Shown here piece after piece: positions 35,051-55,905 of a DNA stretch of 64,000 bases (position 1 is its first letter; each line of letters starts with the position of its first letter). The notes beneath the pieces were generated by a model that saw nothing but the letters and a program-made list of their open reading frames with translations, was not told the DNA's origin and did not search any database. Origin of the DNA: an uncultured Prevotellaceae bacterium (lineage in GTDB: Bacteria > Bacteroidota > Bacteroidia > Bacteroidales > Muribaculaceae). The translations under genes and the position numbers were made by a program. Where the stretch lies: positions 31,026 to 95,025 of the forward strand of contig ONKF01000013.1 of NCBI GenBank assembly GCA_900318335.1. Reading direction: 5' to 3'.

Positions 35051-35593
35051 CTAAAAATCGATACCCACCCTAAAGTCGATGCCACCACAGTTCTTCTTTA
35101 CCCTATAGTAGTCAAAATCATAGTCAATAATGAAAAACTCTGATTGCTGCATGGTGTAGCCAATGCCAACGTTGAGGCCAATGTCATCGGAAAGCTCAAA
35201 CCTGCAACCGACCGACGGATTGATGTACACGCCTTTCACGTCAATCAACGAGTAGCCCACCCTGAGGTCGACGTATGGCGTAATTTCATTGTTGATGAGA
35301 TCACTGCGGAAATGAGCGAACAGCGGAAGACTGCACAACTCATCATTGCCATCAAAATAGTAATTGAAACCCACACCCAACCCAGCGAAAAATTGCGGTG
35401 CGATCTGGTATCCATGAGATGTCATGATACCAATGCGGTCATGGTTCTTACCCCAGTCGCCCACACCAAGTGTGTAGGAGAAATCGGCAAAACCACGATA
35501 CCCTTCAGGGATTCCATCATCGTCAAAGTAGATTGCGCTTGCAGTCAAGCATGACAGCACAACAAGCGCACAAAGCAACATCACTTTTTTCAT
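35051..35593 (-). CDS. Small outer-membrane beta-barrel protein
   Basis: Exported 180-residue protein, signal peptide 1-20 (ending TASAI). Alternating amphipathic strands (FADFSYTLGVGDW, FFAGLGVGFNYYF, ITPYVDLRVGYSL, GLNVGIGYTM) and an aromatic end (IDFRVGIDF) fit an OmpW/OmpX-like 8-strand barrel. First gene of the operon; its -7 box TAATTTTG lies at the complement of 35663-35670. Function unknown. Confidence 0.75.
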   Translation of the reverse strand: MKKVMLLCALVVLSCLTASAIYFDDDGIPEGYRGFADFSYTLGVGDWGKNHDRIGIMTSHGYQIAPQFFAGLGVGFNYYFDGNDELCSLPLFAHFRSDLINNEITPYVDLRVGYSLIDVKGVYINPSVGCRFELSDDIGLNVGIGYTMQQSEFFIIDYDFDYYRVKKNCGGIDFRVGIDF

Positions 35594-35662
35594 AATAATT
35601 TTATTTTTAATGATTTAACGATTTTTGAGGCAATAGTTATCCTCTACAACAGTTCCAAGACA

Positions 35663-35670
35663 CAAAATTA
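35663..35670 (-). promoter_or_regulatory. -7 box of the four-gene envelope operon
   Basis: TAATTTTG on the minus strand about 70 bases before the ATG at 35593. It lies in the T-rich tail of the upstream gene's terminator. Confidence 0.45.
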
Positions 35671-35681
35671 TTCATTATAAA

Positions 35682-35706
35682 CAACACGCTTAGGAAAAGC
35701 GTGTTG
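35682..35706 (-). terminator. Terminator of HTH gene A
   Basis: CAACACGCTT (35682-35691) and AAGCGTGTTG (35697-35706) form a perfect 10-bp stem with loop AGGAA. Read leftwards it is followed by TTTATAATG. Confidence 0.75.
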
Positions 35707-35715
35707 CGCATAGTT

Positions 35716-35952
35716 CTACGATTCTGTAGAATCTTTTTCCACATCCATACTATCCTCCTGGCAATAGAGGGCGAAGAAATTGCGATTTAAGATGATGCTG
35801 ATTCGTTCCAGCAGACGGGTATCGATGCCCTGTCGCTTGAAGATATTATACACATTGGTGCGGTCGCAGTGCAATTTCTCTGCGAGCCACGATGCACCCC
35901 GTTCCTGGCGATGCAATTCTGCTTTTATTTCTCTTCCAATATGTATTTTCAT
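35716..35952 (-). CDS. Mini helix-turn-helix protein A
   Basis: Predicted DNA-binding protein of 78 residues. The start at 35952 (MKIHIGREIKAEL) matches the two paralogues; an upstream in-frame ATG at 35991 has no counterpart there. The core GASWLAEKLHCDRTNVYNIFKRQGIDTRLLERISIIL is an XRE-like four-helix HTH, followed by NRNFFALYCQ and an acidic tail. It has its own terminator and a long upstream leader. The family occurs widely in Bacteroidetes as small stand-alone genes of unknown role. It is the most diverged of the three copies. Confidence 0.8.
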   Translation of the reverse strand: MKIHIGREIKAELHRQERGASWLAEKLHCDRTNVYNIFKRQGIDTRLLERISIILNRNFFALYCQEDSMDVEKDSTES

Positions 35953-35996
35953 TGTTTTGTATCCGCACCCGATGGCGCGTCGTCCTATCATTTAAT

Positions 35997-36032
35997 AACC
36001 CCCTCTTGGTTCAGTCTTGGCAAGAGGGGGTT
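35997..36032 (-). other. Hairpin in the leader of HTH gene A
   Basis: AACCCCCTCTTG (35997-36008) and CAAGAGGGGGTT (36021-36032) form a perfect 12-bp stem around 12 bases, 45 bases upstream of the gene. A weaker CCCCC/GGGGG pair lies at 36089-36110. The stretch 35953-36342 has no other gene. Confidence 0.7.
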
Positions 36033-36289
36033 CTTGCACTTACCGAAGCGACGTTGTCATGACTCTCTATAAATCTCGCGGCCCCGGTCCCCCAATACAT
36101 TTAGTGGGGGTTAAAATCTCAAAAAAAAAATCCGCAATGTAACGTTTGTCGACGTTCATCGAAAACACGGAGGATTTCGAGGCGCTTTCCCTAGGGCTTG
36201 GTTTCTTTTTAATGTATTCATCATCGTTTATTAATAAAGTATTACGATAGACCGATCAAGCCATGACAGGCACGGCCCACTCGGGATTG

Positions 36290-36297
36290 CAAAATTA
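36290..36297 (-). promoter_or_regulatory. Possible -7 box for HTH gene A
   Basis: TAATTTTG on the minus strand about 340 bases before the gene. No matching -33 TTTG was found, so this is weaker than the promoters of copies B and C. Confidence 0.35.
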
Positions 36298-36342
36298 CTG
36301 CTTATTGTAGCTGCATGTTACTCACGCGTATTGCAGAAAATA

Positions 36343-36585
36343 CTACACATCCGTTGAATTTTTTTCACCGCCATCACAGTTCCCCAGGCCTTGGCAAAAG
36401 AGCATGAAGAAGTTACGGTTCAACACGGCACAGATGCGTTGCAACAGTATCGTGTCAATCCCCTCGCGCTTAAAGATGTTATAAACGTTGGTACGATCAC
36501 AGTGGAGGCGATGGGCCAACCACGTAGCGCCATGCCCTTGCCGGCGCAGCTCAGCTTCAATTTCTTTCCCGATGTGAATCGACAT
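36343..36585 (-). CDS. Mini helix-turn-helix protein B
   Basis: Paralogue of A and C, 80 residues from MSIHIGKEIEAELRRQ at 36585. The HTH core (GATWLAHRLHCDRTNVYNIFKREGIDTILLQRICAVL) and NRNFFMLFCQ are nearly the same as in copy C, also at DNA level, which points to recent duplication. An in-frame ATG at 36657 would extend into the unrelated leader and is not used. The acidic C-terminus (NCDGGEKNSTDV) is variable among copies. Confidence 0.8.
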   Translation of the reverse strand: MSIHIGKEIEAELRRQGHGATWLAHRLHCDRTNVYNIFKREGIDTILLQRICAVLNRNFFMLFCQGLGNCDGGEKNSTDV

Positions 36586-36679
36586 TGCAGTATAAACAAC
36601 GATCGCAACGGCTCCCTTGTAGCGACCATCCAGATTACACAAGAGCATGGGAGCCAAGTGGGCATTCTACAATCCACCC

Positions 36680-36711
36680 CTATTCCTAATGCTGCACGGC
36701 ATTAGGAATAG
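36680..36711 (-). other. Hairpin in the leader of HTH gene B
   Basis: CTATTCCTAATGC (36680-36692) and GCATTAGGAATAG (36699-36711) form a perfect 13-bp stem with a 6-base loop, 94 bases upstream of gene B. The rest of 36586-36890 holds no gene. Confidence 0.75.
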
Positions 36712-36890
36712 ACTTTCATGTATGGGCACATTTCGCCCACCCACTACGCTTTAATTGAAAGATACATTATGATTATTTTGATGTCACAACTGTGTCTCTC
36801 GACATCGTTAGGACATCATCATTCATACTATAACAATATTTTTCCTTGAGGAAATTCATTTTGCTTATATACCGCTATTCTTAAGCGTTG

Positions 36891-36922
36891 CAAAAATACT
36901 CATTTCTCCCAAAATTTACAAA
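36891..36922 (-). promoter_or_regulatory. Promoter for HTH gene B
   Basis: TTTG (complement of 36919-36922) and TATTTTTG (complement of 36891-36898) are 20 bases apart on the minus strand. The transcript would carry a leader of about 300 bases. Confidence 0.6.
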
Positions 36923-36928
36923 CACATC

Positions 36929-36951
36929 AGTGTGGAATATTTTTCCACACT
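36929..36951 (-). terminator. Hairpin after HTH gene C
   Basis: AGTGTGGAA (36929-36937) and TTCCACACT (36943-36951) form a perfect 9-bp stem with loop TATTT, 20 bases after gene C and directly in front of the gene B promoter. The tail is only moderately T-rich. Confidence 0.55.
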
Positions 36952-36971
36952 ATTCTATGTTGTCGCATCCG

Positions 36972-37202
36972 TTAATCTTTTTCACCGCCGTCACAGTCTC
37001 CCATGCCCTGGCAAAAGAGCGTAAAAAAGTTACGGTTCAACACGGCACCGATGCGTTGCAGCAGTATCGTGTCGATTCCCTCGCGCTTGAAGATGTTATA
37101 AACGTTGGTACGATCACAGTGGAGGCGATTGGCCAACCACGTAGCGCCACGCCCTTGCCGGCGCAGCTCAACTTCAATTTCTTTCCCGATGTGAATCATC
37201 AT
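36972..37202 (-). CDS. Mini helix-turn-helix protein C
   Basis: Third paralogue, 76 residues (MMIHIGKEIEVELRRQ; the second ATG at 37199 is equally possible). The core GATWLANRLHCDRTNVYNIFKREGIDTILLQRIGAVL differs from copy B by only a few residues. Its leader of about 410 bases with two strong hairpins is the longest of the three. Confidence 0.8.
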   Translation of the reverse strand: MMIHIGKEIEVELRRQGRGATWLANRLHCDRTNVYNIFKREGIDTILLQRIGAVLNRNFFTLFCQGMGDCDGGEKD

Positions 37203-37217
37203 ACTCGTCCGAATCTC

Positions 37218-37239
37218 TTGCAGCAGTTTCCTGCTGCAA
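37218..37239 (-). other. Leader hairpin 1 of HTH gene C
   Basis: TTGCAGCAG (37218-37226) and CTGCTGCAA (37231-37239) form a perfect 9-bp stem with a 4-base loop only 15 bases before the gene C start, close enough to affect ribosome access. Confidence 0.65.
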
Positions 37240-37305
37240 CTTGGTTAATATTTCATCAGTATGAGAACAAAAAAAGTTCTCTCCAGCCAGTCTTGACTCT
37301 CAATA

Positions 37306-37343
37306 TGAATGTCCGGAACCTCGTGCGAGGTTCCGAACATTCA
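37306..37343 (-). other. Leader hairpin 2 of HTH gene C
   Basis: Arms 37306-37323 and 37326-37343 pair at 17 of 18 positions with almost no loop (CG-TG-CG). Downstream TTCATCGAAAA (37340-37350) recurs in the leader of gene A (near 36155). The remaining 37344-37618 shows no gene. Confidence 0.7.
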
Positions 37344-37618
37344 TCGAAAATCTCGACACGAGAGGGCATAGTTATCCCTTGCTCCTTATTCCATAATTAC
37401 TATAATTTGAGAATCAAGCCCTTAAAAAGAACTCTGATTCCATACCAATAAAACATATCATCCAAGACTTAGCTTGGCGGACGATAGATGATATTCATTT
37501 TCTTCGAGTATTAAAATGAAGTTAATAATGCTAATTAATCAATGCCAGAGCAACTGGCGCCCGTGTACTGTCTGCCCCCTTGGCATCCAGTCCAAATGGC
37601 CTCATTTGCCCGGCACTA

Positions 37619-37650
37619 CAAAGATACTTCTATCTTTCCAGAATCACAAA
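37619..37650 (-). promoter_or_regulatory. Promoter for HTH gene C
   Basis: TTTG (complement of 37647-37650) and TATCTTTG (complement of 37619-37626) are 20 bases apart on the minus strand, more than 400 bases from the gene. Confidence 0.6.
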
Positions 37651-37733
37651 CAATAAGCGTAGAAAAAATTTCTACAATCGCGACATCGCCGCGAAAAAAT
37701 GACATCCATGACTTTACTTTTATGAGAAAATTG

Positions 37734-37741
37734 TAACTTTG
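37734..37741 (+). promoter_or_regulatory. -7 box for aminopeptidase P gene
   Basis: TAACTTTG, 46 bases before the ATG at 37787; it decides against a TTG start at 37739. Confidence 0.5.
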
Positions 37742-37786
37742 CGGGTTAGTTCATCAAACGAGAAACAATACAAACCTAATATTACA

Positions 37787-55783: not shown

Positions 55784-55905
55784 GCAAAGGTAGTGCAAGC
55801 CGAGCGGAAAACAAAATTTATTTTGATTTTCCCGAGGCGCAGCCTACTTTCGCCGCAAGGCAAAGGTAGTGCAAGCCGAGCGGAAAACAAAATTTATTTT
55901 GATTT
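55784..55905 (-). repeat. Tandem 46-base direct repeat carrying two promoters
   Basis: Bases 55784-55829 and 55860-55905 are identical over 46 bases, 30 bases apart. Each contains, on the minus strand, TTTG (complement of 55812-55815 and 55888-55891), a 19-base spacer and TACCTTTG (complement of 55785-55792 and 55861-55868). The yfhO-family gene thus has two equal promoters. A diverged copy lies before the amylase gene (16827-16900). Confidence 0.75.

Follow-up and report, generated by a model that had tools for sequence, protein, structure and literature searches.

The window analysed here is a stretch of 64,000 nucleotides of contig ONKF01000013.1 (assembly GCA_900318335.1) from an uncultured Prevotellaceae bacterium. 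The genome (G000) is a Bacteroidales assembly of 3.15 Mb in 70 contigs, and its closest relatives in our scans were metagenome-assembled genomes from animal guts and rumen. Three small helix-turn-helix genes (mini-HTH genes C, B and A) stood in tandem on the minus strand, flanked by pepP (M24 peptidase) on one side and by a gene for an outer-membrane beta-barrel-like protein on the other. Each was preceded by a long folded leader RNA, and the conservation of folded leaders before homologous genes points to what may be an undescribed kind of RNA-gated gene switch. Genes, leaders and promoters lay as follows:

36972..37202, minus strand: mini-HTH gene C, 76 aa
36343..36585, minus strand: mini-HTH gene B, 80 aa
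35716..35952, minus strand: mini-HTH gene A, 78 aa, ATG at 35952, in a separate beta clade
35051..35593, minus strand: outer-membrane beta-barrel-like gene behind the array, which may be its target; Pfam match below cut-off
37203..37618, minus strand: gamma-type leader RNA of C
36586..36890, minus strand: alpha-type leader RNA of B
35953..36289, minus strand: beta-type leader RNA of A
37619..37650, minus strand: promoter of C, TTTG-N20-TATCTTTG, about 420 nt upstream of gene C
36891..36922, minus strand: promoter of B, TTTG-N20-TATTTTTG, about 310 nt upstream of gene B
36290..36297, minus strand: -7 box of A, TAATTTTG, 345 nt before the ATG of A

A preliminary description of this DNA had proposed three paralogous HTH genes of 76 to 80 residues on the minus strand, two of them (B and C) nearly the same in DNA. 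Both points were confirmed, the second by 92% identity between B and C over 229 nt. It had also assigned well-spaced promoters to B and C and a -7 box alone to A, which agrees with the positions above; no TTTG matching the -7 box of A was found. The Bacteroides-type pattern TTTG-N19-21-TAnnTTTG was rare, with eight occurrences in the window where shuffled sequence would give 0.33, and a scan for sigma-70-type promoters gave nothing above chance. The perfect or near-perfect hairpin described for each leader was likewise present in all three leaders (300-415 nt long), that of A at 35994-36035 and those of B and C at the positions listed further below. Finally, the unit of variable RNA and constant protein that it pictured was recovered. 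B and C matched from the start codon up to roughly codon 73, and had unrelated leaders and upstream identity at chance level. Copies 1 and 2 of another locus (L009) behaved in the same way, apart from some resemblance over the 20-40 nt that precede the ATG.

The leader types recurred between species. A contig scan of genomes gave 36 loci, of which 13 besides the window (L005-L017) held tandem arrays, as pairs or a triple of the same genes; one further locus had a single gene (L018) and another a single gene with a broken first copy (L019), and some loci were near-identical to each other (L011, L013 and L014). The alpha type comprised window B and eight others, counting the broken L019 copy, the beta type window A and ten others, the gamma type window C and five others, and the delta type three leaders. 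A TAnnTTTG box lay upstream in 32 of 32 cassettes, four of them A-type copies with a leader of only about 100 nt. Beta-type and short-leader HTH genes formed one clade (0.996). When the 17 copies of alpha, gamma and delta type were placed on a tree, leader type changed 8 times against 7.6 in shuffles (p 0.82). Leader type was thus independent of the coding tree, and therefore either leaders and coding parts have been exchanged or coding parts have been homogenised by gene conversion; gene conversion would fit the near-identical coding parts of B and C. Judged by these sequences, the leaders appear to behave like exchangeable modules.

Each of the three window types had a consensus fold that was kept across species. 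The alpha fold had 94.8% of cells paired and 8 two-sided pair changes (4.6 in shuffles, 3/500 as high, at most 4 when slid), beta 95.5% and 7 (2.8, 1/500, at most 2) and gamma 92.9% and 16 (4.0, 0/500, at most 8), and the covariation score exceeded all 500 shuffles for alpha, beta and gamma alike. These structures were drawn from the alignments on which they were tested, a bias in their favour, and the 6 to 11 related rows make for modest statistics. Folding z over the 240 nt upstream of the gene was -8.2 for C, -2.7 for B and -2.4 for A. The main structural elements were:

37305..37344, minus strand: variable hairpin of leader C, perfect or near-perfect
36680..36711, minus strand: variable hairpin of leader B, perfect or near-perfect
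37479..37484, minus strand: closing helix of leader C, 5' strand TCGTCC
37205..37210, minus strand: closing helix of leader C, 3' strand GGACGA, 2 nt before the ATG
35997..36037, minus strand: beta segments 1 (GCAAGA), 2 (CCCCCTCTTGC) and 3 (CAAGAGGGGGTT), with overlapping hairpins 1:2 and 2:3

In gamma the closing helix (UCGUCC/GGACGA) ended 2 nt before the ATG and was invariant, and therefore had no covariation support of its own; alpha had a similar long-range helix. In the variable hairpins, pairing was kept within each leader though the arms diverged. Own-arm scores were 14, 16, 8, 10, 10, 8, 8 and 11 in alpha (cross mean 6.0), 16, 10, 12, 10, 10 and 8 in gamma (6.5; a different hairpin was picked in L006 and L018) and 13, 16 and 16 in delta (7.3), values that are inflated by the choice of the best hairpin of each sequence. 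In beta, hairpin 1:2 was paired in 11/11 leaders and 2:3 was the best hairpin in 7/11, and as read from the sequence the two overlap. A terminator lay 51-55 nt before the ATG in all three delta leaders. Within the window, beta was the only terminator-like leader, with a weak U-run, and a consensus terminator scan found 4 against 2.6 expected, no clear excess.

Across 101 genomes of the genus, all nine long alpha matches lay beside an HTH gene, as did gamma, save a match in G234 cut by a contig end and a short 32-nt match in G198 that was set aside. An apparent orphan gamma copy in G234 was dropped because the match runs to the contig end. None of the leaders from the window stretch and 52 loci matched Rfam at E limits of 0.1 to 1. 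A leader peptide in alpha was rejected, as its frame is broken in L016 and in L011, L013 and L014; leader peptides in beta and gamma were suggested by eye, at bases that are also part of predicted helices.

The comparison that the preliminary description had called for, of homologues and their leaders in related genomes, extended these features well beyond the window clade. Mini-HTH homologues were present in 88 of 149 genomes of the bacterial family (E 0.001) and in 30 of 198 genomes drawn from the order (E 1e-8). The 240 nt upstream of 153 of 155 homologues had a mean folding z of -3.22, with 47% below -3, against a mean of -0.80 and 6% below -3 for 150 control open reading frames (ORFs) drawn from 159 (p 9e-22), and the mean reached -3.87 for the 109 homologues with a distant -7 box. 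Twenty-three upstream regions from other families of the order, taken from 20 stretches at best-scoring places and including one doubtful second start, had a mean z of -4.74, with 19 below -3. Some of the sequences behind these means are closely related and do not count as independent events. Many leaders shared a strongly covarying AA/RCC core, in which an outer helix, AA and an inner helix are answered by the inner helix, (A/G)CC and the outer helix. At a score of 12 or more this core was present in 62 of the 151 leaders from outside the window clade, and its inner stem took 23 distinct forms; reversed leaders gave 0 of 151 (3 at a lower score) and shuffled leaders 1 of 183 at a lower score.

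At the end of class II leaders stood a terminator, and its 3' arm pairs with a hairpin arm of the same leader, at -17.75 kcal/mol against -11.15 with other leaders (p 8e-10; 19 of 23 usable, the other 4 having no U-run by the rule applied). The order-wide set behaved alike (own -17.0, cross -11.4, p 2.5e-5, 20 of 23 leaders usable). By eye the class II hairpin arm also pairs with an upstream arm, and the two pairings would therefore compete. Homologues occurred in the named species Phocaeicola massiliensis, Bacteroides finegoldii and Parabacteroides distasonis (plasmid-collection records), with leaders that were class II or III-like by eye. In B. finegoldii the leader had a z of -3.7, and the next two genes after the homologue were a hypothetical one and one for an outer-membrane beta-barrel protein. 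A genome from another family (G293) carried eight mini-HTH copies, several with strongly folded leaders (L208, L212, L215 and L224).

Class I, found in the bacterial family of the window genome, is a structured RNA of about 120 nt with its own promoter and a covarying pseudoknot. Ten sequences gave 96.7% of cells paired and 9 two-sided pair changes against 5.1 in shuffles, and the RNA gave 66 matches, spread over 45 of the 149 family genomes (L160-L189 and others). It resembles the window leaders in being structured, having its own promoter and preceding a mini-HTH gene in 11 of 30 fetched loci (one more had a broken-looking copy, 15 others had no such gene, and the remainder of the 30 fell outside the count); it is unlike alpha to delta in sequence. 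Class I often occurs without a mini-HTH gene and alpha and gamma are found with one, and leader classes therefore differ in how tightly they are associated with it. The class I model (R1) had no match in G000, and none of 17 loci searched matched Rfam. In several class I loci a gene for a lipoprotein, an outer-membrane protein or a repeat protein lay 300-520 nt downstream of the RNA.

Profile libraries hardly detect the mini-HTH proteins: gene B scored 13.8 bits against HTH_26, below the curated cut-off of 22, A and C matched no HTH family, and NCBIfam gave nothing at its cut-off. The AlphaFold2 (AF2) model (pLDDT 86.2) had five helices (5-15, 20-27, 31-38, 45-55 and 61-70) and a disordered tail. 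Its nearest Foldseek matches were C.BclI (TM 0.66) and SinR (TM up to 0.78), at E 0.014-0.015 with none below 0.001, and together with the model these matches (E 0.014 and up) indicate the five-helix HTH fold of Cro/CI-type (XRE) proteins.

Upstream of the promoters of B and C lay palindromes that are candidate operators, and a third stood at the end of the array:

37658..37676, no strand: palindrome TGTAGAA-N5-TTCTACG, 7 nt before the TTTG of C, candidate operator
36931..36949, no strand: palindrome TGTGGAA-N5-TTCCACA, 8 nt before the TTTG of B, candidate operator
35725..35743, no strand: palindrome at the 3' end of gene A, upstream of the promoter of the outer-membrane gene

Sixteen of 17 units of the alpha, gamma and delta types carried an exact TGTRGAA-N5-TTYYACR (8/8, 6/6 and 2/3, respectively), which ended 31-32 nt before the -7 box, and the window held 12 sites of this pattern at up to two mismatches against 3.9 expected (each palindrome counts twice). 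At the 3' end of the last HTH gene, before the promoter of the next gene, a TTCWACR half-site was present in 16/16 loci, followed by TGTAG in 12/16. By inspection, class I units had a different palindrome, GTGTGAAA...TTTCACAC, and a different recognition helix (CDRRNVY). The HTH genes have similar C-termini (e.g. STDV; 35716-35743 in the window), which may be kept by DNA half-sites in the codons rather than by the protein. Perfect operator-type palindromes (TGTAGAAATWATTTCTACA and TGTAGAAATATTTTCTACA) also occurred within unrelated coding genes (L197 and L198, at G000 C46:25807 and C48:24436).

Clustering of flanking ORFs of at least 90 codons showed pepP and envelope genes as the recurring neighbours of mini-HTH loci. 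Two similar hairpins linked leader C with the 5' untranslated region (UTR) of the outer-membrane gene behind the array:

37363..37379, minus strand: hairpin AGGG-ATAACTATG-CCCT in leader C
35627..35644, minus strand: similar hairpin GAGG-ATAACTATTG-CCTC in the 5' UTR of the outer-membrane gene

With the search pattern applied, hairpins with the loop AUAACUAU occurred at these two places and nowhere else in G000, and were absent from the corresponding stretch of the other 15 loci. Elsewhere in the window, one promoter sequence with its flanks occurred twice on the minus strand, 76 bases apart (55785-55815 and 55861-55891), upstream of a single gene.

We put at about even the chance that the array is a set of RNA attenuators gating small autoregulators next to envelope genes. 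Each unit would consist of a promoter, with or without an operator, a long structured leader RNA and a mini-HTH gene, making the locus a self-contained regulatory array. The mini-HTH protein, as a small Cro/CI-type DNA-binding protein, probably acts on TGTRGAA-N5-TTYYACR; with these palindromes standing before B- and C-type promoters, it would therefore feed back on its own units, in whichever direction that control runs, and the site at the end of gene A may extend its action to the envelope gene that follows the array. The leader RNA would set the amount of HTH protein. In alpha and gamma it is predicted to close into a single large fold, with the final helix stopping directly ahead of the start codon, and in delta and many other leaders to form rival hairpins with an intrinsic terminator at the end; beta would form such hairpins with a weak U-run. 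A signal, perhaps a ligand, that shifts the fold could then let transcription or translation through, and different leaders on near-identical proteins would wire different inputs to one output. The RNA-regulated switch of the preliminary description gains support on the comparative side, from conserved covarying leaders and leader-specific terminator arms, and the switching itself stays a prediction. Among the outcomes which that description had named as refuting, a lack of conserved structured leaders beside homologues elsewhere was not what the comparison showed.

Several observations weigh against this reading. The 44 of 153 homologues without a distant -7 box had weakly folded upstream regions (z -1.59), 4 of 15 A-type copies had a leader of about 100 nt, so that the RNA is dispensable in those copies, and the fourth copy in G000 (L004) as well as L020, L022 and L023 had a -7 box near the gene and no long leader that we could see. 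Counts of further pair types did not exceed shuffles (340/500 as high in alpha, 34/500 in beta and 460/500 in class I), and the AA/RCC core was found in 0 of 32 window-clade leaders at a score of 12 or more (2 at a lower score). Alpha had no U-run and that of gamma lies inside a conserved readthrough structure, and competition between hairpins is a prediction read from sequence. As for the operator, TGTRGAA-N5-TTYYACR occurred in 0 of 15 A-type (beta or short) units and no clear palindrome was apparent by inspection in classes II-IV. Only three of the five exact sites in the whole G000 genome lay in the array, the other two being in unrelated coding genes, and the genome count with one mismatch equalled the reversed control (17 vs 17).

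The strongest rival explanation, which we regard as somewhat doubtful, is that the leader RNA is itself the product, a regulatory small RNA ended by its own terminator, with readthrough giving an HTH protein that limits the RNA by repressing its promoter. Delta, class II and class III leaders have terminators before the ATG, which would suit such an arrangement, as would palindromes at promoters, the presence of class I RNA before other genes or alone, and the independence of leader type from the protein. However, alpha and gamma were found only beside the HTH gene in the genus genomes (the short G198 match aside), and their conserved closing helices extend up to the start codon, which would be superfluous in a terminated RNA. 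It is unlikely that the HTH protein represses its own translation by binding its leader RNA in addition to the operator. Leaders do stand on HTH genes across the order, and Aca2, an HTH protein reported to bind DNA and RNA, would be a precedent, but near-identical proteins with unrelated leaders (B and C, and copies 1 and 2 of L009) are hard to reconcile with a single RNA-binding surface.

Equally improbable in our view is that folded leaders do no more than stabilise the mRNA or hold translation low, with no signal and no switch involved; the leaders are diverse and some copies (the short type and L004) do without, yet an invariant AA/RCC loop between freely covarying helices and terminator arms specific to their leaders suggest more than bulk structure. 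Last, the preliminary description had offered an addiction-like pair or a self-copying cassette, an idea that tandem repetition and the near-identical coding parts of B and C might recall. The addiction-like pair gained no support: no small partner gene recurred beside the mini-HTH gene in the flank clustering, whose size limit leaves room for partners below 90 codons, and the recurring neighbours were pepP and envelope genes. Nor did the self-copying cassette: phage records gave no mini-HTH homologue at E 1e-3, the neighbours scanned included no mobile gene, and two leader patterns had no exact match in viral contigs. We consider either form very improbable.

If the attenuator reading of the array is carried to the whole order, a more tentative picture, possible rather than probable, is a Bacteroidales system of RNA-gated autoregulators. 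In it, a mini-HTH family would be combined with interchangeable RNA sensors that plug signals into envelope-gene control, the sensors being an order-wide AA/RCC family with a built-in attenuator and the lineage-specific alpha to delta and class I RNAs. Passages on HTH proteins, Bacteroides relatives and attenuation in PMC11109978, PMC8632094, PMC7366714 and PMC10994844 did not touch on the mini-HTH family, the parts of PMC13370916 consulted did not mention HTH, and long 5' UTRs with possible leader ORFs are mentioned in general in PMC7366714. We recognised nothing on the family in the wider literature covered, which largely excludes subscription papers and so does not imply absence from print. 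A large set of strongly covarying leaders before one small regulator family, present also in named gut species and having no Rfam entry, would give direct access to new RNA sensors, and to the signals they respond to, in a dominant gut order, with leader RNAs seen exchanged as modules before a nearly identical protein.

Among known systems, the controller (C) proteins of restriction-modification systems regulate themselves and a neighbouring gene. The mini-HTH proteins share the Cro/CI-type fold and a similar size with them and with SinR, but have a long structured leader and no restriction or methylase gene among the scanned window neighbours. Compared by description only, Aca2 is likewise a small HTH autoregulator linked with a structured RNA, whereas the leaders here vary independently of the protein. 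In transcription attenuators, such as trp, T-box and riboswitch expression platforms, terminator and antiterminator hairpins compete. The leaders described here differ in controlling a tiny HTH regulator, in having no Rfam match and, for alpha and gamma, in lacking a plain terminator platform. They resemble attenuators in their length upstream of the gene, in the predicted terminator before the start codon of delta and class II-type leaders, in the overlapping pairing options predicted for beta and class II, and in terminator arms that are specific to each leader.

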